Positions 1-12,195 of a stretch of 64,000 nt of DNA are shown one piece after another. Under the pieces are notes generated by a model that was given only the letters and a program-made list of their open reading frames with translations, did no database searches and was not told the DNA's origin. The stretch's first letter is position 1; the number at the start of each line of letters is the position of its first letter. The translations under genes were made by a program, and so were the position numbers. Where the stretch lies: contig JACRII010000073.1 of NCBI GenBank assembly GCA_016235875.1, positions 1 through 64,000 of the forward strand, written 5' to 3'. Source of the stretch: Planctomycetota bacterium (lineage in GTDB: Bacteria > Planctomycetota > Brocadiia > Brocadiales > Brocadiaceae).

Positions 1-81
1 CCTTTCCCCTATAATTATTCTTTAGCAGATGGATTGCTTTATATTACACGCGTAAAATAATTTCCAGCTTGACTAAGTAAA

Positions 82-3000
82 ATGATAAAGAAAATGTTGT
101 CATTCAAATCAATTAAAAACAGGTTAATACTGATCCTGCTATTATGCTCGTTTACGCCATTATTGTTGTTGCGTTTTATGGCGTTTCCCAAGGCGCAAAA
201 AGATTTGGAAGAGGCTTTGATAAGTAACCTGGAGGGTGTGAAACAAAAACAGACCGAGATTGTAAAAATGTGGTTTGATGAAAGAAAGCATGACGCAAAG
301 GTCGTCAGTAGAAACATCTCTGCTGTGCTGGGAGAAAGCATAAATGAAAGGGTTAATAATTTTTTAAAGTTGAATGATTATATCGAAATGCTCAGAGCGG
401 AACACAAATATGAGGACGTGTATGTTACTTCCCGTGAGGGGACAGTACTTGTGGCTACCGGAAAGGAATGGGTTGGTTCCAATCTTATAAGTCGTGATTA
501 TTGCAGAGAGGCGTTGAATGGACACGTTTTTATATCACGGATACAGTATTTTGTCCGGAATGAAGGTGAAAACAAAAAAGGTGACGCTGAATCTCCGATA
601 ATGTTTATATCCGCTCCACTGATGGATACCGACAATCTTATCGTTGGAGCAGTCATTCTGAGAATGGATACAGTGCATCTTAGCACAATTATGAAGAGTG
701 CAAAATTGGGAAAGACGGGAGAAACGTTTCTCGTTAACAGGGAAGGTATTATGCTTACGGAGTCGCGGTTTGCAGATGAGTTAAGAAAGAAAGGCATAAT
801 TCAGCACAGGACAACATTAGAGTTGAAGATAATAAATCCACACACAGGAAAACTTACCAATGGCGCTCAAAAATGTCTGAGTGGTAAAGATGGATACAAT
901 GCGGAAGGATATATAAATTACGACGGGAGTAAAGTCCTGGGCGCATGGTGTTGGGTTCCAGAGTATGATTGTGGTTTATTAGCGCAGATTGATATCCGCG
1001 AAGGGTACGGGGCGGCTCACAGTTTGAAAAAATTTGTTCTTTCTGCGCTATTGTTATTGGCATTCCCTTTAATACTGGTTGCATTTTATTTTGGAAGAAG
1101 GATTTCTGCCCCGATCTTGAATATAACCGATGCAACAAAAAAGATTACCGGCGGCGATCTGGGTCAGCGGGTAAAAGATAGCGGCAAGAGTGACGAGATT
1201 AGCGGACTGGCTAAGGCGTTCAATGTGATGGCAGAATCTCTTGAAGAAAAGACGACTAAATTAACAAGATACACGACAAATCTTGAGAATATTGTAAGAG
1301 AAAGAACCCTCGAATTACAGTCAACGACGAATTTTTTGAATAGTATCCTGGCAGGTTCTACCGAATATTCGATTATTGCAGAAGATTTGAACGGCAATAT
1401 CCTTGCATTCAATAAAGGGGCGAGTCTCATGTATGGCTATAGTCCTGAAGAAGTGGTTGGAAATGCCAACGTCCGGATTCTTCACACAGAAGAAGATGTG
1501 AGGTCGGAAAAGGTGGATCACATCTTGGAGGTGGCGCGCAGGACAGGTCGATATGAAGGAGAAGTCGTGAGAAGAAGAAAGAACGGCGAGGTCTTTCCTG
1601 TGCATGTTACTTTTACATCACGACGCGATGAAAATGGCCGCCCCATTGGTTTTGTAGTAATATCAAAAGATATCACGAAAGAGAAGTTGGTGGCGCTGGA
1701 AAAGGAAATTGTAAATAATGTTAATAAGTTGATTGCCTCAGGTCTGGATATTAAAGAAGTTTACAAGAATATTTATCTGGAGTTGAAACGTATCGTCGAT
1801 TTTACCTGGTTAGGCGTGGCGTGTCTCATAGATGGTGCAGAAATTACCGAGGATTCCAATATTGTTGATGGAGTATTATCGATGGATTGGCTGAATACCG
1901 GCCAGTACGCATTTCATGCACTGGCGCAGAGTGTAGCTGTTAAAAGTGGCGAGCCTGTGCTTGTCACAGATACGCTTGGCGGGAAGTATACGATCGACCA
2001 GGAATTATACAAAAAAGGGATATGCTCTTATCTCTGCTTTCCTTTGAATTCAAAAGGAACCCCAATTGGAACTATTGCACTGGGGAGCAAAAAGAAGAAT
2101 GCTTTTACAGAAATACATTTTGATTTGTTGAATCAAATTACGCCACAATTAGCCATTGCGATAGAGAATACGAGGCTTTTTGTATCCATACGGGAGTCAG
2201 AAAAAAAATATAGGGATTTGGTAGAAAATGCACCCGAAATGATTCACGAGATCAGTCCCGAAAGAAAGTTTATTAACGTAAATAAGACGGAGTTAAATAA
2301 ATTAGGATATTCCCTGGAAGAAATGAGACAGATGATGCTTGAGGATATTGTCCCGAACGATCATAGAGAGGAAATAAAGAGACATTTTAAACATATTATA
2401 GTGACAGGAAGCAGTGAATTAGAAACCGTGTTTCTGACAAAATCGGGAAAGGAAATCAACGTCGAAATCAATGGAACTGCTCTTTATAATAATAAAACAG
2501 GGGAATGTATCTGCGCGAGGGCATTTGTGCGAGATGTTACGGAAAGAAAGAAGATGGAGGAGCAGGTACGTCGGTCAGAAAAATTGGCCTCGATGGGCGA
2601 GCTTGCCGCGGCGATTGCCCATGAGATACGAAATCCCCTGGGGGCGATATGCAATTCCGTAGGAATTCTGGATACTCATTTAAAATTGACAGGTCAGGAT
2701 AAGGATTTATTAGAGATGATTGTAGGACAGTCTGAGAGACTGGATCGGATTATCAAAGATTTCCTGACCTTTGCCCATCCGCGAGAGCCATACTTCTCTT
2801 TACATGACATTCGTGAAGTGATTAAAAATACCATTTTCCTGTTAGAGCAAGATAACCGGTTTACGGACAAGATAGAAATAAAGGAAACCTACGAGAGCAT
2901 ATTGCCGAAAGTTTACATTGATACGGATTTAATTCACCAGGTATTGTGGAACCTATTTGTAAATTCTTTGGATGCCATGTCTGACGGCGGACAGATCAGG

Positions 3001-3267
3001 ATAATGGCTAGAAAAGCAACTTTGTTTTTAAGGGACGCTGTAGAAATCGTGATATCAGATACCGGGTCAGGCATACCATCCCATGAGTTGGACAAGATAT
3101 TTGAACCTTTTTATACTACGAAATCAGAAGGGACCGGTTTGGGACTTCCAATGGTTCAGCGTATTATCGATGACCATGGAGGAACGGTTGATATTAAAAG
3201 CAAAGAAGGGAAAGGGACGACATTTTATATCAAACTACCTGTTGGAAACGAAAAATTAGCAGTTTAG
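82..3267 (+). CDS. Membrane sensor histidine kinase (CACHE-HAMP-PAS-GAF-PAS-HisKA-HATPase)
   Basis: This 1061-residue protein is a membrane histidine kinase. An N-terminal hydrophobic helix (about 12-32) is followed by a large extracytoplasmic CACHE-type sensor region (about 35-315), a second membrane helix (about 317-337), HAMP, a PAS domain (about 413-535), a GAF domain (about 545-700), a second PAS (about 710-830), then HisKA with the H-box HEIRNP (His847) and a HATPase with N-box, DTGSGIP and GTGLGLP boxes. All catalytic boxes look intact. The NtrC-type regulator starts 30 bases downstream, so the two form a two-component pair that probably drives sigma54-dependent genes. The N-terminal half closely resembles the kinase-less sensor at 5809-8097, suggesting duplication. 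A second ATG at 94 aligns better with that paralogue's start; neither has a strong ribosome site. The ligand is unknown; nitrite or another small anion is only a guess from the neighbours. Confidence 0.93.
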   Translation: MIKKMLSFKSIKNRLILILLLCSFTPLLLLRFMAFPKAQKDLEEALISNLEGVKQKQTEIVKMWFDERKHDAKVVSRNISAVLGESINERVNNFLKLNDYIEMLRAEHKYEDVYVTSREGTVLVATGKEWVGSNLISRDYCREALNGHVFISRIQYFVRNEGENKKGDAESPIMFISAPLMDTDNLIVGAVILRMDTVHLSTIMKSAKLGKTGETFLVNREGIMLTESRFADELRKKGIIQHRTTLELKIINPHTGKLTNGAQKCLSGKDGYNAEGYINYDGSKVLGAWCWVPEYDCGLLAQIDIREGYGAAHSLKKFVLSALLLLAFPLILVAFYFGRRISAPILNITDATKKITGGDLGQRVKDSGKSDEISGLAKAFNVMAESLEEKTTKLTRYTTNLENIVRERTLELQSTTNFLNSILAGSTEYSIIAEDLNGNILAFNKGASLMYGYSPEEVVGNANVRILHTEEDVRSEKVDHILEVARRTGRYEGEVVRRRKNGEVFPVHVTFTSRRDENGRPIGFVVISKDITKEKLVALEKEIVNNVNKLIASGLDIKEVYKNIYLELKRIVDFTWLGVACLIDGAEITEDSNIVDGVLSMDWLNTGQYAFHALAQSVAVKSGEPVLVTDTLGGKYTIDQELYKKGICSYLCFPLNSKGTPIGTIALGSKKKNAFTEIHFDLLNQITPQLAIAIENTRLFVSIRESEKKYRDLVENAPEMIHEISPERKFINVNKTELNKLGYSLEEMRQMMLEDIVPNDHREEIKRHFKHIIVTGSSELETVFLTKSGKEINVEINGTALYNNKTGECICARAFVRDVTERKKMEEQVRRSEKLASMGELAAAIAHEIRNPLGAICNSVGILDTHLKLTGQDKDLLEMIVGQSERLDRIIKDFLTFAHPREPYFSLHDIREVIKNTIFLLEQDNRFTDKIEIKETYESILPKVYIDTDLIHQVLWNLFVNSLDAMSDGGQIRIMARKATLFLRDAVEIVISDTGSGIPSHELDKIFEPFYTTKSEGTGLGLPMVQRIIDDHGGTVDIKSKEGKGTTFYIKLPVGNEKLAV

Positions 3268-3296
3268 AATAACCTTTTAGTGGGATAATCGGGAAT

Positions 3297-4709
3297 ATGG
3301 AAGACGGTAAAATTCTTGTTGTGGAAGATCAGGATGCCATGAGAGAATCTCTCGTGATTGCATTTAAAGACGAGGGATATCAGGTTGAGGGTGTTGCAAG
3401 CGGGGAAGAGGCTATTCAGAGATTGAATAGTAATAATGTATATGACCTGGTTGTTACAGACCTGAAGATGAAAAAAGTGGATGGTCTAGAAGTGCTCAAG
3501 GCAGTGAAGAATGCAAATTCATCCACTGAGGTTGTACTCATTACGGCCTACGGTACCATCAGCACGGCAGTTCAGGCGATTCGGGATGGGGCATATGATT
3601 ATGTAACCAAACCTTTCCGTCACCAGGAAATCCTGAAAGCTGCAAAAAAGGCAATTGAAAAGAAGATGCTGAAAGACAGGGTCAGATACCTCGAAGGGGA
3701 AATTAGGGATAAATATAAATTTGAGGGTATTGTAGGCAATTCAAATGCGATGTTAGAGGTACTGAAAATAACTTCACATGTGTGCCGTACGGAGAGCACA
3801 GTTCTTGTGACAGGCGAGAGTGGGACAGGGAAAGAATTGATTGCCAGGGCAGTTCATTACAATAGTCCTCGAAAAGACGGCCCATTTGTTGTGATTAACT
3901 GCGGTGCGTTGCCTGAAAACTTACAGGAAAGCGAACTGTTTGGACACGTGAAAGGGGCTTTTACCGGAGCAATCAGGGATAAAATGGGGTTGTTCCAGCA
4001 GGCACAAAAGGGGACAATTTTATTGGACGAGATCGGGGAGACGTTGCCTTCTACGCAAGTAAAACTCTTGCGATTTCTGCAGGACGGAGAAATCCGCCCT
4101 GTTGGTGGAAATAAATCGATATTTGTGGATACGAGGATAATTGCCGCTACGAATGAAAATTTGGAAAAAGCCGTAGAATCGGGAAAATTCAGAAAAGATC
4201 TGTTTTATCGGATCAATGTAATACGTATTCATATTCCTCCTTTGAGGGAACGAAGGGAAGATATTCCGCTTTTAGTGGAGTATTTTTTAGAGAAAATTTT
4301 AGAAAAATTTAAAAAGGGCAAAAGGGTGTTCTCCGAAGAAGCGATGTACGCATTTATGAATTACGATTGGCCCGGTAACATCAGGGAACTGCAGAATATG
4401 ATAGAAAGGGCTGTTGCATTGTCTAAAAGCGAGATAATAAATGTTGATGAACTTCCGTTTCCGGTTCCTGTGGAGGAATTTGCGGCGCTTTCCAGGAATC
4501 CGTTAGATGACGAGAGAAAGAAATCGTTTATTGTTACTACCCTTGCAGAACAGGAAAAAAATGCCATTATTGAGGCCCTGAACAAATACGGTGGCAATCA
4601 AACAAAGGTTTCTCAAGTGCTCGGAATATCCACAACGACACTTTGGAGGAAGATTAAAAAATACAGAATTAAATCACAACACGAAATCTCAGACAATGTC
4701 GATAATTAA
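3297..4709 (+). CDS. NtrC-family sigma54-dependent response regulator
   Basis: A 470-residue three-domain activator. The receiver domain (1-120) has the acidic pair near residue 10, phosphoacceptor Asp55, a Thr in LITAYG and Lys in YVTKPF. The central AAA+ domain carries Walker A GESGTGKE, the sigma54-contacting GAFTGA loop and the Walker B region LLDEIGE. The C-terminus is a Fis-type helix-turn-helix (NQTKVSQVLGISTTTLWRKI). It follows the histidine kinase by 30 bases with the same orientation, so it is very probably its cognate regulator and activates RNA polymerase carrying RpoN. Its targets are not shown by the sequence; no convincing -24/-12 site was found in front of the neighbouring transporter genes. 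It is followed by a strong intrinsic terminator. Confidence 0.95.
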   Translation: MEDGKILVVEDQDAMRESLVIAFKDEGYQVEGVASGEEAIQRLNSNNVYDLVVTDLKMKKVDGLEVLKAVKNANSSTEVVLITAYGTISTAVQAIRDGAYDYVTKPFRHQEILKAAKKAIEKKMLKDRVRYLEGEIRDKYKFEGIVGNSNAMLEVLKITSHVCRTESTVLVTGESGTGKELIARAVHYNSPRKDGPFVVINCGALPENLQESELFGHVKGAFTGAIRDKMGLFQQAQKGTILLDEIGETLPSTQVKLLRFLQDGEIRPVGGNKSIFVDTRIIAATNENLEKAVESGKFRKDLFYRINVIRIHIPPLRERREDIPLLVEYFLEKILEKFKKGKRVFSEEAMYAFMNYDWPGNIRELQNMIERAVALSKSEIINVDELPFPVPVEEFAALSRNPLDDERKKSFIVTTLAEQEKNAIIEALNKYGGNQTKVSQVLGISTTTLWRKIKKYRIKSQHEISDNVDN

Positions 4710-4815
4710 TTTCATACTGAAACCACTATTGCATAATGGAATGTCTTTGTGAACCGATAAGACGCAGATTGTTTATGAAAGTGAAAATATAATCGTTTTA
4801 ATAAAACGTTGATTT

Positions 4816-4850
4816 AATACCACTTACATAAAATATAAGTGGTATTTTTT
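4816..4850 (+). terminator. Intrinsic terminator after the NtrC-type regulator
   Basis: An 11-bp perfect stem (AATACCACTTA at 4816-4826 pairing with 4836-4846) encloses a 9-base loop and runs into a T tract. It ends the kinase-regulator operon and separates it from the HPP gene. Confidence 0.85.
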
Positions 4851-5045
4851 CCCCCATGACGATGTTGGTATATTTTTCGTTACTACATAAAGGCCAGGAA
4901 GTAAAATTTATACCTTGCTTTCCTTAAGTAAGGTCGTAAGCAAAAAGACGGTAAAAACCTATGTGGGTGATAATTTCTTTTCTGTATTTCGTAGATTGTT
5001 TTTTGTGAATCTTGCTATTGTAATTGGGGGGATGGATTTTGCCTG
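4851..5045 (+). other. Leader region of the HPP-FocA gene block
   Basis: Together with the terminator this is a 336-base stretch without a gene. I searched it for a sigma54 -24/-12 element (GG-N10-GC) and found none. A purine-rich GGGGGGATGG just upstream of the ATG at 5046 can act as ribosome site. The promoter itself was not recognised. Confidence 0.4.
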
Positions 5046-5729
5046 ATGTTCAAGAAAAGAAAAACCACAGAGGTTAAAAAGGTTATAGATGTTAAGTTTG
5101 AAGTTAAAGAAGATTTAGAAGAAGATAGAGAAGGTTATTTAGCGCATGTGTCAGAGTTCTTTAAAGGGTCTTCAAATGGGGAGAAGGGAAAAATGCCGAT
5201 AATGGATGGAATAAATAAGTTTCGTGTGTATGTAAAGAAGTTACCTAGGGCGCCGCATCCTCCGGTTCCTTCAAGGGAGGTGTGGCTTTCTTTGTGGGGT
5301 GCGTTTCTGGGTGTAGGATTTACGGCATTGCTTGCTGTTCTCTGGAAGTGTCCGATGTTATTGGGACCGTTTGGTGCCAGTGCCGTGCTGGTTTTTGGCG
5401 CTTATAAGGCGCCGCTTGCGCAGCCGAGGAATGTACTGATGGGGCATTTTTTAGCGGCATGCATCGGTGTGTGCGTAAATGATTTCTTTGGTGTCACTTT
5501 TTGGTCTATTGCCCTTGGCGTTGCCCTTGCACTGGTGCTTATGGTAGTGACTTATTCAATCCACCCGCCCGCTGGTGCAACAGCGTACGTGGCTGTTCAG
5601 ACAGGAGGTTTGGGTGTCGGCTATATGTATATCTTGAATCCGGTCATCTTGGGTGCCTTTATTTTGGTATTAATTGGTGTCATTTTTAATAAAATGGGGA
5701 AAAGGGATTATCCGACACATTGGTGGTAA
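5046..5729 (+). CDS. HPP family integral membrane protein, possible nitrite transporter
   Basis: A 227-residue protein with a charged cytoplasmic N-terminus of about 60 residues, then the HPP-family core: APHPPVPSREVW, several hydrophobic helices, LLGPFGASAVLVFGAYKAPLAQPRN and HPPAGATA, the family signature. HPP proteins in cyanobacteria and plants have been linked to nitrite transport, and this gene opens a block that ends with a FocA/NirC channel gene, so a role in nitrite movement across a membrane is a reasonable inference. In an anammox-type cell it could act at the cytoplasmic or the anammoxosome membrane; the sequence does not say which. The protein ends shortly after the last helix, with normal family length. 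It is followed after 79 bases by the kinase-less sensor gene on the same strand. Confidence 0.88.
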   Translation: MFKKRKTTEVKKVIDVKFEVKEDLEEDREGYLAHVSEFFKGSSNGEKGKMPIMDGINKFRVYVKKLPRAPHPPVPSREVWLSLWGAFLGVGFTALLAVLWKCPMLLGPFGASAVLVFGAYKAPLAQPRNVLMGHFLAACIGVCVNDFFGVTFWSIALGVALALVLMVVTYSIHPPAGATAYVAVQTGGLGVGYMYILNPVILGAFILVLIGVIFNKMGKRDYPTHWW

Positions 5730-5808
5730 AAAATGTGTAATGGGCAGCGGAGAGGTCTGATATTTATGAACTTGGACGTACAATTTTGTTAAATTACGGA
5801 GAAAAATA

Positions 5809-8097
5809 ATGTTTATCTCGATTAAAAATCGGCTTATTTTCTTACTGATCATATTTACGTTAATACCATTTGTTTTGCTAAGGATTGTGGCTTATCCGAG
5901 GATACAGTCAGATCTTCAGGATGTCTTGATACGAAACCTCGATGGTATCGGGCATAAGCAGTCAGAATTGGTCACTACCTGGATAAGTGAAAGGATGAAG
6001 AATGCTCGTGTAGTTGCAAATAATCCATTGATGGTTAAATGTGCAAAGCTCACAAGAGATGATAAAGATTATGCGGATATAGTCCAATATCTTGAAGTAG
6101 TAAAAAGTGAGTATGTTTTAAAGGGTGTGCTTGTTAGTAATGATAAGGGTTTGATAACAACCGCTTCATCTGGAGAAAGCGTAGGAAGTGATATTTCAGA
6201 GATGGATTATTTTAAGCAAGCGGTACAAGGTAATACCTTCGTATCGGGTATTATTCCATCTGAGGTCCCCCTTGCAAATGAGTTCGGAGAGAAGGAACTT
6301 GGTATGCCAACGATGTTTGTTTCAACGCCGTTGAAAGATAGGGATGGGGTTGTAATTGGTGTTGTCGCCTTGAGGATCGACGTTAGTACGTTGAATGAAT
6401 TGATGTTGAGTCTTAAGCTGGGAAAGACGGGTGAGACGTATCTCGTGAATAAAGATGGATACATGATCACAGAATCAAGGTTTGCAGTGCATCTGAAAGA
6501 GATGGGGTTAGTGAAAAAGAGATGCACATTGGAATTGAAATTGATTAGCAGAGAGACAGGTGAGTTGACTACTGGAGTTAAGCAGTGTGTTGCTGGTAAT
6601 AATGGCTTCGATGCGAAAGGGTATAAAGATTATAGCGGTATCACGGTGTTGGGTGTATGGCGGTGGCTGCCAGAGTTCAATTGGGGCGTTATGGCAGAAA
6701 TTGACAGGGATGAAGGTTATGGGGCTGCCTATAATCTTAATTATATTGTGAGTTCTATATTGCTGGTGCTGGCATTTCCGATAGTGCTGGTGGCATACTT
6801 TATCGGTAGAAAGACTTCGGTACCGATTATAAAGCTGAAAGAAGTAACTGAGAAAATGGCATCGGGGGATTTAACTCAAAGAGTAGACATAAAGAGAGAA
6901 GATGAGATTGGTGTATTGGCAAATTCCTTTAACGCCATGGCGAAATCCCTGGATGAGAAGACGAAGGAGATAGCGGCATCAGAGAAACGATACAGGGAAT
7001 TGTTTAACTCTGTAAAGGAAGGCATCTATCAATCAGAGCCTGGAGTGGAGGGCGTGTTTACCTTTATTAACAAGGCCGGTGCGGAGTTGTTAGGATATAG
7101 TAGTCCTGAAGAAGTGATTGGGACGAAGGTAAAAAGCATATACGTAGACCCGGAAGACAGAAGAAGGCTTTGCGAGAAACTTGAAAAGGACGGGGTGTGG
7201 AGGGAATTTGTATCTCTTTGTAAAAGAAAAAATGGCGAGAATTTCTATGCAGAGCGTACCAGCAATTTGCTGAGGGACGAAAAAGGAAGTCCGGTCGCTA
7301 TTTATGGAGTGCTTCGCGACATCTCGGAAAGAAAAAAGGTGGAGATGGAGATCGTCGAATCCGAAAAGAAATACCGTTTGTTGTTCAATTCACTCAAAGA
7401 AGGCGTTTATCAATGTGAACCAGAAGTGGATGGCGCGTTTACATGGGTGAATCAGGCAGGCGCTGAGATACTTGGGTACAAATCTCCGGAAGAGGTGATT
7501 GGAACAAAGGTGAAGGATATTTATGTAAATCCTGACGACCGTAAAAAAGTGGTTGAAAAGTTATCAAAAGAGGGCGTATGGAAGGGTTTTGTATCTTTCT
7601 GTAAGAGGAAGAACGGCGAGCGTTTTTATACGGAGCGGACATCCAGTCTGGTGACCGATGACAAGGGTAAACCTATTCGTATAGAAGGGATATTTAGAGA
7701 TATTACAGAGCGGAAAAAATTGGAGGAGGAGCTGCAGGAATCTGAAAGACATCATCGGCAACTGCTGAATTCGTTGAAAGAAGGTATATATCAGTGTGAG
7801 CCTGCCGAAGACGGGGTATTTACCTGGATTAATCAGGCAGGGGCGGAGATACTCGGTTACAGTTCGCCAGAAGAAGTCATAGGAACGCGGGTAAAGGATG
7901 TATATGTTAATCCCGACGACCGAAAAGAGTTAGTTGAGAAGTTGGAGAAGGAAGGCGTATGGAGAGATTTTACTTCCTATTGCAAGAGAAAAAATGGCGA
8001 GCGATTTATCTCTGAAAGGACGTGCAATCTCGTGCGTGATGAAAACGGTAAGTCGATTAGAATTGAAGGTGTATTTCGGGATATAACGGAAAGGTAA
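5809..8097 (+). CDS. CACHE-HAMP sensor with three near-identical PAS domains and no kinase domain
   Basis: This 762-residue protein has an N-terminal helix, an extracytoplasmic CACHE-like domain (about 30-315), a second helix (about 316-336), HAMP (to about 385) and three tandem PAS domains of 127-residue period (391-517, 518-644, 645-762). Each PAS repeat contains SPEEVIGT, an NP/DP-x-DR motif and CKRKNGE, and ends RDI(S/T)ER, showing recent internal duplication. The reading frame stops right after the third RDITER, where the first two repeats continue with KK and a linker coiled coil. No HisKA, HATPase, GGDEF or other output domain follows. The N-terminal half is a paralogue of the kinase at 82-3267. 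Start is supported by GGAG upstream of ATG. It may act as an adaptor with the next two genes, or be a truncated kinase. Confidence 0.9.
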   Translation: MFISIKNRLIFLLIIFTLIPFVLLRIVAYPRIQSDLQDVLIRNLDGIGHKQSELVTTWISERMKNARVVANNPLMVKCAKLTRDDKDYADIVQYLEVVKSEYVLKGVLVSNDKGLITTASSGESVGSDISEMDYFKQAVQGNTFVSGIIPSEVPLANEFGEKELGMPTMFVSTPLKDRDGVVIGVVALRIDVSTLNELMLSLKLGKTGETYLVNKDGYMITESRFAVHLKEMGLVKKRCTLELKLISRETGELTTGVKQCVAGNNGFDAKGYKDYSGITVLGVWRWLPEFNWGVMAEIDRDEGYGAAYNLNYIVSSILLVLAFPIVLVAYFIGRKTSVPIIKLKEVTEKMASGDLTQRVDIKREDEIGVLANSFNAMAKSLDEKTKEIAASEKRYRELFNSVKEGIYQSEPGVEGVFTFINKAGAELLGYSSPEEVIGTKVKSIYVDPEDRRRLCEKLEKDGVWREFVSLCKRKNGENFYAERTSNLLRDEKGSPVAIYGVLRDISERKKVEMEIVESEKKYRLLFNSLKEGVYQCEPEVDGAFTWVNQAGAEILGYKSPEEVIGTKVKDIYVNPDDRKKVVEKLSKEGVWKGFVSFCKRKNGERFYTERTSSLVTDDKGKPIRIEGIFRDITERKKLEEELQESERHHRQLLNSLKEGIYQCEPAEDGVFTWINQAGAEILGYSSPEEVIGTRVKDVYVNPDDRKELVEKLEKEGVWRDFTSYCKRKNGERFISERTCNLVRDENGKSIRIEGVFRDITER

Positions 8098-8147
8098 AAG
8101 CATGTATTTAAATGAATTAAAATACACTGAACGAGGAGTAAAAAATT

Positions 8148-8681
8148 ATGGGAAATGAGAGCGTTAAGGGTTTGTCCGTCAATGCAAAAACCCTGATTCT
8201 TATATTGTTGTTTGTGAATGTTGGGTTTGCATCAAAGATGATTAATAAGTATTATGCAATGAAGGAATCGGGCTATATCAGGGAAAAGACTTTCCACGAG
8301 CAGTTGCAGCAAAGGGTAATGAAATCTTTTGGTTCTATGGAAGAAATGAATAAAATGATCGCGGACATTACGCGGCAAAAAGAGGAGGCTGAAAAGGTTG
8401 CGGGTTCTGTTAGAGAACACGATGAACAGTTAAAACTTGTAAACAAGAAACTCGAAGATGCAAAGGCAAGGCTGGAGGAAGAAAAGGCCCGATTGCAAAA
8501 GGAGATATGGGAGACAGAAGACTCGCTCTCCCAGGCAAAGAAGGTAATGAGCGACAAGGATTATACGATCAAGGAGCTTATGAATAATTTAGAAACTGCT
8601 GAAAAGGAAAAGGATGCCTTGAAGAAACAACTTGAAGAGCAAACAAAGACACCCGGCGCCTGGAGCCTCCCCCATCAATAA
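8148..8681 (+). CDS. Membrane-anchored coiled-coil protein, function unknown
   Basis: A 177-residue protein of no recognised family. One hydrophobic segment (about 15-32, TLILILLFVNVGFASKM) is followed by a long Glu/Lys/Gln-rich region (about 55-165) with heptad character, and a short Pro-containing tail. A good ribosome site (GAGGAG) precedes the ATG, 50 bases after the kinase-less sensor. Its position between a sensor lacking an output domain and a lone receiver suggests that it could be a scaffold or signalling partner, but this is inference only. Confidence 0.75.
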   Translation: MGNESVKGLSVNAKTLILILLFVNVGFASKMINKYYAMKESGYIREKTFHEQLQQRVMKSFGSMEEMNKMIADITRQKEEAEKVAGSVREHDEQLKLVNKKLEDAKARLEEEKARLQKEIWETEDSLSQAKKVMSDKDYTIKELMNNLETAEKEKDALKKQLEEQTKTPGAWSLPHQ

Positions 8682-8714
8682 AGGTAGTAATTACCGTGAT
8701 TATGAAAGATTTTT

Positions 8715-9137
8715 ATGCCAAATATTTTGATTATAGAAGACCAGGAAAAGACTCGAAAGTTGCTGGTGGGCGCCTTTAAGCGGGAGAAATATAAAACGTG
8801 TGATGGAACAGATTGGAAAAAAGCGGTAGAATTTCTCAATAAAAATGTCTATGATCTCATAATTGTTGATCTGGAAGTAAAGTCACTGACGGGTTTCGAG
8901 ATGCTGAAGATAATTAAGCTCACGAATCCCAATGCGGAAATTGTGTCGATTTTCAATCCGAATGAATACGATAAAAATCAAATAATCCGTTGCGGTGTGT
9001 ATGATTATGCCCTGAAGCCATTTTTGCTGGGTGACGTTGTGAATATAGGTAAGAAGGCATTGGAAAAGAAGCAATTGTCTGATAAAGTGCGAAATCTGGA
9101 GCAAATCAGGGATATGGATAAATTTGCCATATCGTAG
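8715..9137 (+). CDS. Stand-alone response-regulator receiver
   Basis: A 140-residue single-domain receiver. It keeps the acidic patch (IIEDQE), the phosphoacceptor Asp in LIIVDLE (about residue 53) and the conserved Lys in YALKPF, but the usual switch Thr/Ser site reads IVSIFNP and is atypical. It resembles the receiver of NtrC-type regulators, including the helix after YDYxxKPF, but has no AAA+ or DNA-binding domain. No histidine kinase is encoded beside it; it could be phosphorylated by the kinase at 82-3267 or by one elsewhere. It lies 34 bases after the coiled-coil gene and 201 bases before focA. Confidence 0.88.
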   Translation: MPNILIIEDQEKTRKLLVGAFKREKYKTCDGTDWKKAVEFLNKNVYDLIIVDLEVKSLTGFEMLKIIKLTNPNAEIVSIFNPNEYDKNQIIRCGVYDYALKPFLLGDVVNIGKKALEKKQLSDKVRNLEQIRDMDKFAIS

Positions 9138-9338
9138 AAAAGTGTGAAAAGGGGGTTTTTCGAATTATGGAGTATTTTTAATAGTGAAAAGGAAAGGGGG
9201 TGTGTTAAATAATTAAAGAGATTTTAAGGCGGCTGGATGTTTAGAAGTACAGAGTTGAGAGGAGATATGAGGTGCAAGTAAAATGGTGTGTTGATTGGAA
9301 AATGATCTTCACAACAACATTTTAGAGGAGAACAATTA

Positions 9339-10235
9339 ATGTTATATACTGGAGCTGTAGATGCTATTGCGGCAGTGTCTTTAAAGAAAGCCACGGCAAT
9401 GAAACACAGCCTGACAGGTTTCTTGACACTTTCTGTGTTGGCTGGTTTTTATATTGGATTTGGAGTTATCTTGGCATTTATTTGTGCCGCACCCGTAGCG
9501 GCAATAAACCCGGGCATAGGTAAAATAGTTGCCGGTGCAACATTTGGTATTGCGTTGTCTCTGGTAATTATTGGTGGAGCCGAGTTGTTTACCGGGTATA
9601 ATCTGTTGATATTTAAGGGTACCTTGAGGGGTACGGTGACGCTTAGCGATGCTATGTTGGGTTGGTTTTGGACATACGTAGGCAACTTGGGCGGATCGAT
9701 GATTTTTGCGCTTATGATTATTGTATCAGGTATCTTTGCCCCGGATCCCTGGAAGTCATTTTTACTTAAGGTGGCAACATATAAAAGCAACGGGCCATGG
9801 TGGGAGCTATTCTTCAGGGGTATCTTCTGTAACTGGCTCGTATGCCTTGCAATATGGTCCGCTGTTGGCAGATGTACGAGTGATTCAGGCAAGTTGATTA
9901 TGATCTGGTGGTGTCTGTTCTGCTTCATAACAACAGGGATGGAGCACAGCGTGGCAAATATGACCATTTTAACGATTGCGAATCTACTGCCTCACGATCC
10001 GGAAGCGATTTCATGGGGTAAGATGTTTGGATGGAACCTTGTCCCTGTTACCCTTGGCAATATTGTGGGTGGTGCATTCTTCGTCACATTCCTCTACTGG
10101 TTCGCTAATGCGATGGATGAAAGGGGTGCGAAGAGGATGGAGGCTATAAAGGGCGGTTCTGGCGCTGGTGAGTTGCCACGGGCCGGTGGGTCACCCGAAG
10201 AGATTAAGGATATCAAGGTGAAGATGAGGTCGTAA
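9339..10235 (+). CDS. FocA/NirC-type formate/nitrite channel
   Basis: A 298-residue pentameric-channel family protein with six hydrophobic segments. Family features visible are GFYIGFGVILAFI near the N-terminus, GIALSLVIIGGAELFTGYN, NLGGS, NWLVCLAIW and the FITTGMEHSVANM region carrying the conserved pore histidine. The ribosome site GAGGAG sits correctly before the ATG. The family transports formate, nitrite or hydrosulfide; in an anammox-like organism nitrite is the likely cargo, supported by the HPP gene in the same block. The C-terminus has a soluble tail of about 40 residues. The upstream 200 bases hold no recognised operator or sigma54 site. An intrinsic terminator follows. Confidence 0.93.
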   Translation: MLYTGAVDAIAAVSLKKATAMKHSLTGFLTLSVLAGFYIGFGVILAFICAAPVAAINPGIGKIVAGATFGIALSLVIIGGAELFTGYNLLIFKGTLRGTVTLSDAMLGWFWTYVGNLGGSMIFALMIIVSGIFAPDPWKSFLLKVATYKSNGPWWELFFRGIFCNWLVCLAIWSAVGRCTSDSGKLIMIWWCLFCFITTGMEHSVANMTILTIANLLPHDPEAISWGKMFGWNLVPVTLGNIVGGAFFVTFLYWFANAMDERGAKRMEAIKGGSGAGELPRAGGSPEEIKDIKVKMRS

Positions 10236-10300
10236 TTGTAGCACTATGTAACACTCTTGATGATAGTCGTAGAGAAGAGTGCTAGTTTAAAAGTTTTTAT

Positions 10301-10338
10301 AAAAAGGGCCAGTAATAATAAACTGGCCCTTTTTATTT
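10301..10338 (+). terminator. Intrinsic terminator after the FocA/NirC gene
   Basis: A 13-bp perfect stem (AAAAAGGGCCAGT at 10301-10313 with 10322-10334) with an 8-base loop and T-rich flank. The A and T tracts on both sides could also serve the convergent propeller gene on the minus strand. Confidence 0.85.
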
Positions 10339-10443
10339 GTCTGAGATTCTGAATTACCGAAGTTTTGAAGCAATGAAAGATGAAAGACCAAGGAGAGGGT
10401 TTATAGTCTTTTGTTTTTTATTAGTCTGAGGCAACATACTCCG

Positions 10444-11586
10444 TTAGTTGTTACTTGATGCCTCGCCTATTGCATAAAGTTTCCCGTCGTTAGAGCCAAT
10501 ATAGATGGTGCCGTCGACATCTATGGAAGGCGATGATTCTATGGCATCTCCCGTTTCAAATATCCATTTCAGATTTCCATCAGGATTGAAGGCGTACAGC
10601 TTTTTGTCTCTGGAACCGACGTAGATTGTACCATCTGCCCCGATTACCGGAGAAGAACTAACAGAGGCGCCTGTTTCAAAAGACCACTTCAGTTTTCCGT
10701 TGGGTGTGAAGGCGTATATGCTATTATTACCAGAACCAAAGTATACGTTTCCATTCGCATCCATAGCAGCAGAAGAATCAATGTCATACAGGGTATCAAA
10801 TGACCATTCTACCTGTCCATCAGAACGAAAGACGTAAAATTTAGCATCTTCAGAACCAATGCAAATATTTCCATTGGGCGCTATCAAAGGAGATGCGTCT
10901 AAAAGGTATCTGGTGCCAAAACTCCAAACAGCGTTGCCTTCTGGTTTCATTGCAAACAAATAGTAATCTCCAGAACCAAAGTAAATCATGCCATCCGGGG
11001 CTATAGCAGGAGACGACATAATATGATCGGCAGTCTTTTGCGTCCATTTTAACTTACCGTCCTGGGTAATGGCGTGGAGTTTCTTATCCCACGATCCAAA
11101 ATAAATTGTACCATCAGGTGCGATAGCCGGGGAGGAGATGATGCCGCCTTCGGATTTATACTTCCAGCGTATACTACTATCAGAGTTCAGTGCATAAAGA
11201 TGACTATCCCATGATCCAAAGAGAATGGTTCCATCTTTTCTGATAGCGGGTGATGATTCAACCTCCCCTTGCGTTTCGAAAGCCCACTTAAGCTTGCCGT
11301 CTCGAGTGATAGCGTAGAATTTATTGTCTTTTGAGCCAAAGTAGATTGTACCATCTTCACCAATGGCAGGAGAGGAAGTAACAGGTCCTTGCGTTTGGAA
11401 CGTCCATTTAACGATAGGTTTTTGAATGCTACCGTACGGGCTTCTCCCTGTGTGCTGCAAGTCATGCCTGAACATAGGCCAGGGTGTATCGGCAACTTGG
11501 GCATAAAGTGATGTCGATAGGAAGATCGTTAGCAAGAAAAGAATGAATGTCGGTAACGCAAAAAAAGTGATAGATTTTTTTAACAT
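10444..11586 (-). CDS. Secreted PQQ-type beta-propeller repeat protein
   Basis: A 380-residue protein with a signal peptide (about 1-29, ending near SLYAQ) and then about eight repeats of roughly 40 residues of the form GxxxSSPAIxxDGTIYFGSxDxKLYAxxxDGKLKW. This is the WD/PQQ-like propeller pattern found in outer-membrane assembly and quinoprotein-like proteins; no quinoprotein dehydrogenase catalytic residues were recognised, so it is probably a binding or scaffold propeller outside the cytoplasm. It starts 18 bases downstream of hisB in the same orientation with AAAGGAA before the ATG, so it may be transcribed with the his genes although its job appears unrelated. Confidence 0.85.
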   Translation of the reverse strand: MLKKSITFFALPTFILFLLTIFLSTSLYAQVADTPWPMFRHDLQHTGRSPYGSIQKPIVKWTFQTQGPVTSSPAIGEDGTIYFGSKDNKFYAITRDGKLKWAFETQGEVESSPAIRKDGTILFGSWDSHLYALNSDSSIRWKYKSEGGIISSPAIAPDGTIYFGSWDKKLHAITQDGKLKWTQKTADHIMSSPAIAPDGMIYFGSGDYYLFAMKPEGNAVWSFGTRYLLDASPLIAPNGNICIGSEDAKFYVFRSDGQVEWSFDTLYDIDSSAAMDANGNVYFGSGNNSIYAFTPNGKLKWSFETGASVSSSPVIGADGTIYVGSRDKKLYAFNPDGNLKWIFETGDAIESSPSIDVDGTIYIGSNDGKLYAIGEASSNN

Positions 11587-11604
11587 TAAAAAGTTCCTTT
11601 ACCT

Positions 11605-12195
11605 TTAAAGTATTCCTTTTGTCGATGGGACATCTTTTATGCGCTCGTCATACCGAACGGCTTCTTCCAGCGCCTTGGCCAGCCCTTTAAATATGGCCTC
11701 TGCTATGTGATGTGCATTCGTGCCGTATGGGACGTTCACGTGCAGGTTGATGCCTGCATTTGCAGTAAATGCCTTCAGAAATTCTTCGACAAGTTCGGCA
11801 TCGAAATTCCCGATCTTTGCAGTATGAAATGCTACATTATATACTAATGCGGGTCTTCCGCTGATGTCTACCGCAATATTGGCGAGTGTCTCTTGCATGG
11901 GGACGCTTGCATTGGAAAAGCGCCGAATTCCTTTTTTATCTCCCAATGCCTCTTTTATTCCCTGTCCGAGGCATATTCCCACGTCTTCTACCGTATGGTG
12001 ATCATCTACGATACGATCACCGCTTGCCTTGATTGTCAGGTCAAACAGTCCATGTTTGGTAAGCAGGTCAAGCATGTGGTCTAAGAAACCGACGCCGGAG
12101 TTGATGCTGCTGTTTCCATTTCCATCGATGTTGATCGTTAGTTCGACCTGTGTTTCCTTTGTCTTTCTATTGATCGTGGCCGTTCGTTTTGTCAT
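11605..12195 (-). CDS. hisB: Imidazoleglycerol-phosphate dehydratase
   Basis: This enzyme of histidine synthesis dehydrates imidazole glycerol phosphate to imidazole acetol phosphate in the cytoplasm. Family motifs are [29 protein letters not shown] and the metal-binding [13 protein letters not shown] chose the ATG giving [14 protein letters not shown] (196 residues, normal for the mono-functional enzyme); the longer frame to 12243 starts inside a palindromic repeat and adds an unconserved leader. It follows hisC by about 80 bases, the gap being filled by that palindrome. Confidence 0.95.

Follow-up and report, generated by a model that had tools for sequence, protein, structure and literature searches.

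The stretch of DNA analyzed here (the window) comprises 64,000 nucleotides (nt) from a Planctomycetota bacterium of the Brocadiaceae (GenBank assembly GCA_016235875.1, contig JACRII010000073.1, positions 1 to 64,000 of the forward strand), and near its start it encodes a membrane sensor with no recognizable output domain, which we call SENS. SENS is followed by genes for a coiled-coil protein (CC) and a lone receiver (RR). These three genes are flanked by a gene for an HPP-family protein on the 5' side and a FocA/NirC gene on the 3' side, with an NtrC-type regulator and a histidine kinase (HK) further upstream. The genes of the cluster are as follows:

5809..8097, + strand: SENS, 762 amino acids (aa), with a first transmembrane (TM) helix, dCache_1 (about 40-300), a second TM helix, HAMP (331-382) and three PAS domains (Pfam)
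8148..8681, + strand: CC, 177 aa, a long coiled coil preceded by a short hydrophobic segment at the N-terminus
8715..9137, + strand: RR, 140 aa, a lone pseudo-receiver with an NtrC-type linker helix (model helix 105-139; Response_reg E=1.2e-15)
9339..10235, + strand: FocA/NirC-type formate/nitrite channel with a conserved C-terminal tail (Form_Nir_trans E=2e-70)
5046..5729, + strand: HPP-family membrane protein, putative nitrite transporter (TM_HPP, Pfam)
82..3267, + strand: HK, a complete dCache-HAMP-PAS-GAF-PAS-HisKA-HATPase histidine kinase (Pfam; 41% identity to SENS over 2-531)
3297..4709, + strand: NtrC-type sigma-54 activator with an intact receiver, the likely source of RR (Pfam, receiver sites and receiver tree)

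Pfam detects dCache_1 (E=4.9e-23), HAMP and three PAS stretches in SENS, and no Pfam match to HisKA, HATPase, a cyclase or any other output domain was found in the protein. In an AlphaFold model, dCache_1 is flanked by helices 5-70 and 305-351, placing it between two TM helices. The 762-aa open reading frame ends in ...RIEGVFRDITER*, directly after the third PAS, and only 50 nt separate its stop from the start of CC, which leaves no space for a kinase remnant. An earlier note on this DNA had described just such a sensor, ending where a kinase would normally follow and lying next to a membrane coiled coil and an isolated receiver. This description holds, with the membrane location of CC probable only. 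An Rfam scan of window positions 1-12000 gave no match.

The absence of a kinase is a property of the whole family. Full-length matches to SENS (about 1-762 of a frame of about 770 aa; 60-95% identity) with an identical end occur in many related genomes. Using the kinase core from the cluster as a phmmer query, we found none in CC-linked SENS (0/57), and the comparison with orthologs that the earlier note had proposed likewise turned up no C-terminal kinase in any of them. The number of PAS domains in CC-linked SENS varies from 1 to 3, and only 0-20 residues follow the last PAS whether a SENS-type protein has 1, 2, 3 or 4 of them. In a tree of 109 rows built from the N-terminal 400 aa, SENS-type proteins form a single clade (70 rows, support 98; kinase in 0/70) made up of nitrite-cluster SENS (43), carbonic-anhydrase SENS (7), 4-PAS proteins (9), SemiSWEET fusions (3) and other or unassigned members (8). 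The cluster HKs form a separate clade (22 rows, support 100), one row of which represents only the N-terminal part of a kinase whose frame is broken. An ancient kinase loss at the root of the SENS family is possible.

SENS is under strong purifying selection: between the window and three relatives of its genus, the ratio of nonsynonymous to synonymous substitution rates (dN/dS) is 0.046-0.059 for SENS, compared to 0.059-0.108 for CC and 0.136-0.312 for RR. The ectodomain is among the best-conserved parts of the alignment, and its invariant residues include E222-F225, R238, C260, Y272 and Y275. A PDB sequence search with SENS gave a single match, to the FixL PAS only, and a structure search with the SENS model (pTM 0.42) returned PAS and receptor matches, naming no ligand. 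4-PAS SENS paralogs adjoin CzcA/CusA-type metal efflux genes in two genera (L080, L082). Brocadiaceae keep, beside housekeeping genes, two proteins with no output: one with dCache-HAMP only (411 aa; L192:8551-9786) and one with dCache only (592 aa; L192:11398-13176).

The constant partner of SENS is CC. Our set of CC loci (n=60) comprises 61 matches at E<=1e-18 minus one contig-edge fragment (G048:C164), and in 57/60 of these loci, which span Brocadiaceae and Scalindua, the gene immediately 5' of CC is SENS, at a distance of 42-180 nt; the pairing is too regular for chance. One of the 57 is a split SENS with a frame change inside HAMP that may be a sequencing error (G014, L072); we counted it as a pair and did not use it as evidence for splitting. 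One Brocadia metagenome-assembled genome (MAG; L106/L189) has broken frames in NtrC, SENS and FocA and looks error-prone. The remaining 3/60 loci, all in Jettenia, each hold a second copy of CC and have FocA no more than about 3.3 kb away. These SENS-less copies (L156-L158) sit downstream of a UspA-like gene, and L156 is also near a large molybdopterin-type gene with a twin-arginine translocation (TAT) signal.

SENS-CC pairs occupy two genomic settings. Most lie with FocA and/or HPP (48/57), while seven are directly upstream of a beta carbonic anhydrase (Pro_CA) on the same strand, at a distance of 62-75 nt; for the other two, the neighborhood ends at a contig edge. Contig ends also limit the counts of nearby NtrC, HK and transporter genes. 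Several of the carbonic-anhydrase loci additionally carry DabA (PF10070), a Proton_antipo_M subunit, SulP, NhaA or a CitMHS/NhaD-like gene. The earlier note had tentatively seen the system as dedicated to nitrite transport, which is too narrow given that SENS-CC also heads these carbonic anhydrase and bicarbonate clusters. SENS of the carbonic-anhydrase loci fall in one clade (support 95) that brings Kuenenia hertensis and Scalindua together, and because this clade spans both, the nitrite and carbonic-anhydrase settings both seem, on phylogenetic grounds, to be older than the family split.

The Pfam match of CC, DUF1690, is below the cut-off, and its hydrophobic segment of about 14 residues makes a membrane location probable. 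We surveyed 62 genomes of the order, divided into the groups f1 (Brocadiaceae), f2, f3, f4 (Scalindua) and f5. CC is present in 33/33 Brocadiaceae and 14/17 Scalindua genomes; it was found in 0/9 f2 and 0/1 f3 genomes, and the 2 f5 genomes gave no true match, only a weak coiled-coil match in one (G030). The idea that CC marks every anammox bacterium was rejected, as hydrazine synthase alpha occurs in 6/9 f2 and 2/2 f5 genomes, groups in which CC is lacking. Across a sample of the phylum, 16/294 genomes had a CC match, all of them Brocadiaceae. A broader contig scan gave 35 loci (L091-L125), all in anammox records or Planctomycetota MAGs except for one Deltaproteobacteria MAG that may be misbinned; these loci overlap the same genomes and are excluded from our tallies.

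Natural rearrangements of the SENS-CC pair are informative. All three Kuenenia-genus genomes (G015, G020, G023) encode SENS as two proteins, one of 348-352 aa with a TM-dCache-TM architecture and no HAMP, the other PAS-PAS; the genes are ordered HPP-dCache-PAS2-CC-FocA. With SENS naturally split and the gene order kept, output in cis appears unnecessary. In seven Scalindua loci a SENS-type PAS lies inside CC, an arrangement that connects CC with SENS and places its coil on the same side as the PAS domains. A relative of SENS is also found behind an N-terminal PQ-loop/MtN3 (SemiSWEET) domain in three Jettenia genomes (L088:8855-11041, L190 and L191; Pfam was run on one). Taken together, the split and fused forms argue, at the level of sequence, for a physical association of PAS domains, CC and transport proteins. 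The suggestion of the earlier note that this is a split signaling complex thus gains support from synteny, the Kuenenia split and the Scalindua PAS-CC fusions. Two further arrangements were seen. A separate small PQ-loop-like gene lies 3' of the SemiSWEET-SENS fusion in L088, and a kinase-less split sensor consisting of dCache (466-470 aa) and a lone PAS (130 aa) occurs in G043 and G004 (L179:3053-6188, L246:6836-9930), where it adjoins a major facilitator superfamily gene, NarK-like by eye, near a further HPP/FocA set.

The Kuenenia version of the cluster has been published. Judging by gene order and lengths, kuste3050-3055 of K. stuttgartiensis corresponds to the window cluster, with HPP pieces, dCache, PAS-PAS, CC and FocA (PMC6423088, PMC7438415), and we infer that kuste3052, 3054 and 3055 are the dCache, CC and FocA of Kuenenia locus L078; for FocA, a length of 300 aa is given in PMC3482989. 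The available passages of PMC6423088 describe kuste3050-3055 as a nitrite transporter gene cluster, with kuste3052-3054 labeled 'hypothetical' or 'unknown'; without nitrite, transcripts of kuste3052 to kuste3055 fell 3.0, 3.1, 5.0 and 36.5 fold, and proteomics detected the kuste3052, 3054 and 3055 proteins. In excerpts of PMC7438415, the HPP protein kuste3051 is a proposed nitrite transporter, and focA_2 and the kuste3051 HPP go up under nitrite limitation. In these passages, neither account suggests a sensor function, a pairing with CC or a family without kinases. More broadly, no published account of a SENS-type sensor or of CC was found among the titles, abstract beginnings and passages covered, a coverage with most subscription papers outside it.

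In contrast to CC, RR is an optional and dispensable add-on of Brocadiaceae: it stands beside 28/60 CC loci, all of them Brocadiaceae, and was not found at any Kuenenia or Scalindua locus among the 60. Across the 28 sequences, the conserved Thr/Ser of the active site is kept in only one, the Asp in 25 and the Lys in 27 (with Arg in the exception); the window RR keeps the phospho-Asp and has Phe at the Thr/Ser position. The NtrC receivers of the same cassettes keep all five sites in 19/19. The 20-residue linker of RR has a mean conservation of 0.915, compared to 0.651 for the core (27 sequences; the partial 85-aa RR of G048 is in the site tally and left out of the conservation means and tree). 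Its model (pLDDT 91) has a receiver fold whose final helix is 35 residues long; receivers of NtrX, DctD and NtrC1 are among the best structural matches. Pfam finds a receiver only, with the AAA+ sigma-54 and DNA-binding domains absent from its 140 aa. RR sequences form one clade (100/100) that groups with the cassette NtrC receivers (support 84/83). RR looks like a one-time copy of an NtrC receiver and linker and, from its residues, looks like a protein that works, if at all, mainly without phosphorylation.

We also considered the C-terminal tail of FocA as a docking peptide for SENS-CC. The window FocA ends in ..PEEIKDIKVKM.. (EEIKDxKVKM in the subfamily), and this tail is present in 36/37 cluster FocA of Brocadiaceae and in 0/26 distant formate/nitrite transporter (FNT) paralogs, the latter taken from 14 stretches only. 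The docking candidate is weakened by the occurrence of the tail away from SENS-CC, which makes it a trait of the subfamily.

With confidence about evenly divided for and against, we favor a model in which SENS and CC constitute a receptor-adaptor module that works without a kinase and relays its signal to anion uptake systems through protein contact; the output, the ligand, the physical binding, the direction of control and the transporters as target are all things we infer. The dCache domain of SENS would read an external anion or a related cue, causing HAMP and the terminal PAS domains to change state in the cytoplasm. CC, anchored at the membrane and with its coil facing the PAS domains, would dock to them, and the change would then be passed by protein contact to co-encoded uptake proteins, setting or localizing uptake. 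The putative targets are HPP and FocA (nitrite/formate) and, in the sister version, carbonic anhydrase with bicarbonate and ion transporters. In Brocadiaceae a duplicated NtrC receiver and linker, RR, would have been added; with its set of phosphorylation sites largely lost, it would probably act through dimer or linker contacts, possibly with NtrC. Several observations weigh against this model. Gene neighborhood is no proof of contact, the hydrophobic segment of CC is short, and several CC-less SENS relatives (L059, L076, L083) adjoin no obvious transporter. Regarding the FocA tail, it or a close variant is found in 3/3 same-subfamily FocA copies away from SENS-CC, while the tail of Scalindua cluster FocA is unrelated in sequence, with a different conserved tail in 8/10. 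Lastly, Brocadiaceae have a complete HK-NtrC pair in the same cluster, making transcriptional control possible there.

The main rival builds on this last point. SENS could pair with the adjacent HK through dCache, HAMP and PAS, and RR with NtrC through its linker, to tune HPP-FocA transcription. In line with this, SENS and HK are 41% identical over 2-531, an NtrC gene lies within 7 kb of 19/60 CC loci (a count limited by contig ends), and RR groups with the cassette NtrC receivers, has the linker as its best-conserved part and has the receivers of NtrX, DctD and NtrC1 among its best structural matches. We nonetheless find this scenario rather unlikely: it fits Brocadiaceae and not pairs elsewhere, as Kuenenia and Scalindua keep SENS-CC with no RR, and no cassette NtrC was found near any Scalindua or carbonic-anhydrase pair. 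Moreover, sigma-54 promoter-like sites are not above chance (22 found versus 26.8 expected). Less probable again is a passive scaffold, in which the role of SENS-CC is to organize or localize carbonic anhydrase and uptake proteins in the membrane, with dCache sensing now vestigial. The varying PAS number, the presence of PAS in both SENS and CC and the lack of a catalytic domain would suit such an adaptor, but the ectodomain is highly conserved with many invariant residues, as expected of a working ligand domain. It is improbable that SENS controls an orphan histidine kinase encoded at an unlinked genomic site: related dCache-HAMP proteins are numerous in anammox bacteria and some of them carry kinases (e.g., C174 in the genome of the window), yet the constant partner of SENS is CC and not a kinase. 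A recent kinase loss in the window genome by nonsense, deletion or sequencing error, which the earlier note had raised and which the HK-like N-terminus and a stop where the kinase would begin might suggest, is refuted to the point of negligible probability by the like ends of orthologs across genera with no kinase among the clade rows or CC-linked pairs, the 50-nt gap and a dN/dS of about 0.05 (0.05-0.06).

If the contact model is correct, its reach may extend further. In a bolder version, plausible though held with somewhat less than even confidence, SENS-CC would be a portable module with direct contact to uptake machinery as its only output, and without a kinase, cyclase, methyl-accepting or DNA-binding domain. 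The level of substrate would then gate uptake, or the location of an enzyme, with neither transcription nor phosphotransfer involved. The transport systems served by the module would be those of nitrite (HPP/FocA), bicarbonate (carbonic anhydrase, DabA, SulP, Na+/H+ antiporters) and SemiSWEET. Anammox bacteria must balance the uptake of toxic nitrite and of bicarbonate; the many anammox transporters and their expression are discussed in sections of PMC7438415. SENS would be a candidate direct controller: it is conserved, belongs to the cluster that encodes the most strongly expressed nitrite channel of Kuenenia, and has been reused at carbon uptake loci. The naturally split Kuenenia SENS offers pieces that can be tested separately.

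Known systems share individual features with SENS-CC. NifL, a kinase-related PAS sensor, controls the sigma-54 activator NifA by protein contact without phosphotransfer, and the solved NifL-NifA complex 9qq6 is among the SENS structure-search matches. NifL is soluble and keeps kinase-like domains, whereas SENS is a membrane sensor and lacks them. As summarized in passages of PMC4822843, Cache domains are generally accompanied by output domains in the same protein, the SMP_2 family excepted. SENS, with dCache_1 and no output domain by Pfam, fails this rule and would be an exception to it. Pseudo-receivers are defined in excerpts of PMC12632262 by a receiver fold missing at least one of five active-site residues; RR shares the fold and the loss, and differs in that its NtrC-type linker is best conserved and that it stands alone beside an intact NtrC. 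A membrane sensor with a cytoplasmic PAS that touches an uptake protein is described, in the text available of PMC8307970, for DctA-DcuS of E. coli, where contact is made through the C-terminal helix of the transporter. DcuS is a full histidine kinase, while SENS is kinase-less, has a coiled-coil partner and would make a transporter contact that is so far predicted. Finally, the anammox ammonium sensor kinase (Amt-histidine kinase; PMC5764959) is a fusion of transporter and signaling protein comparable to SemiSWEET-SENS, but unlike SemiSWEET-SENS, it has a histidine kinase.

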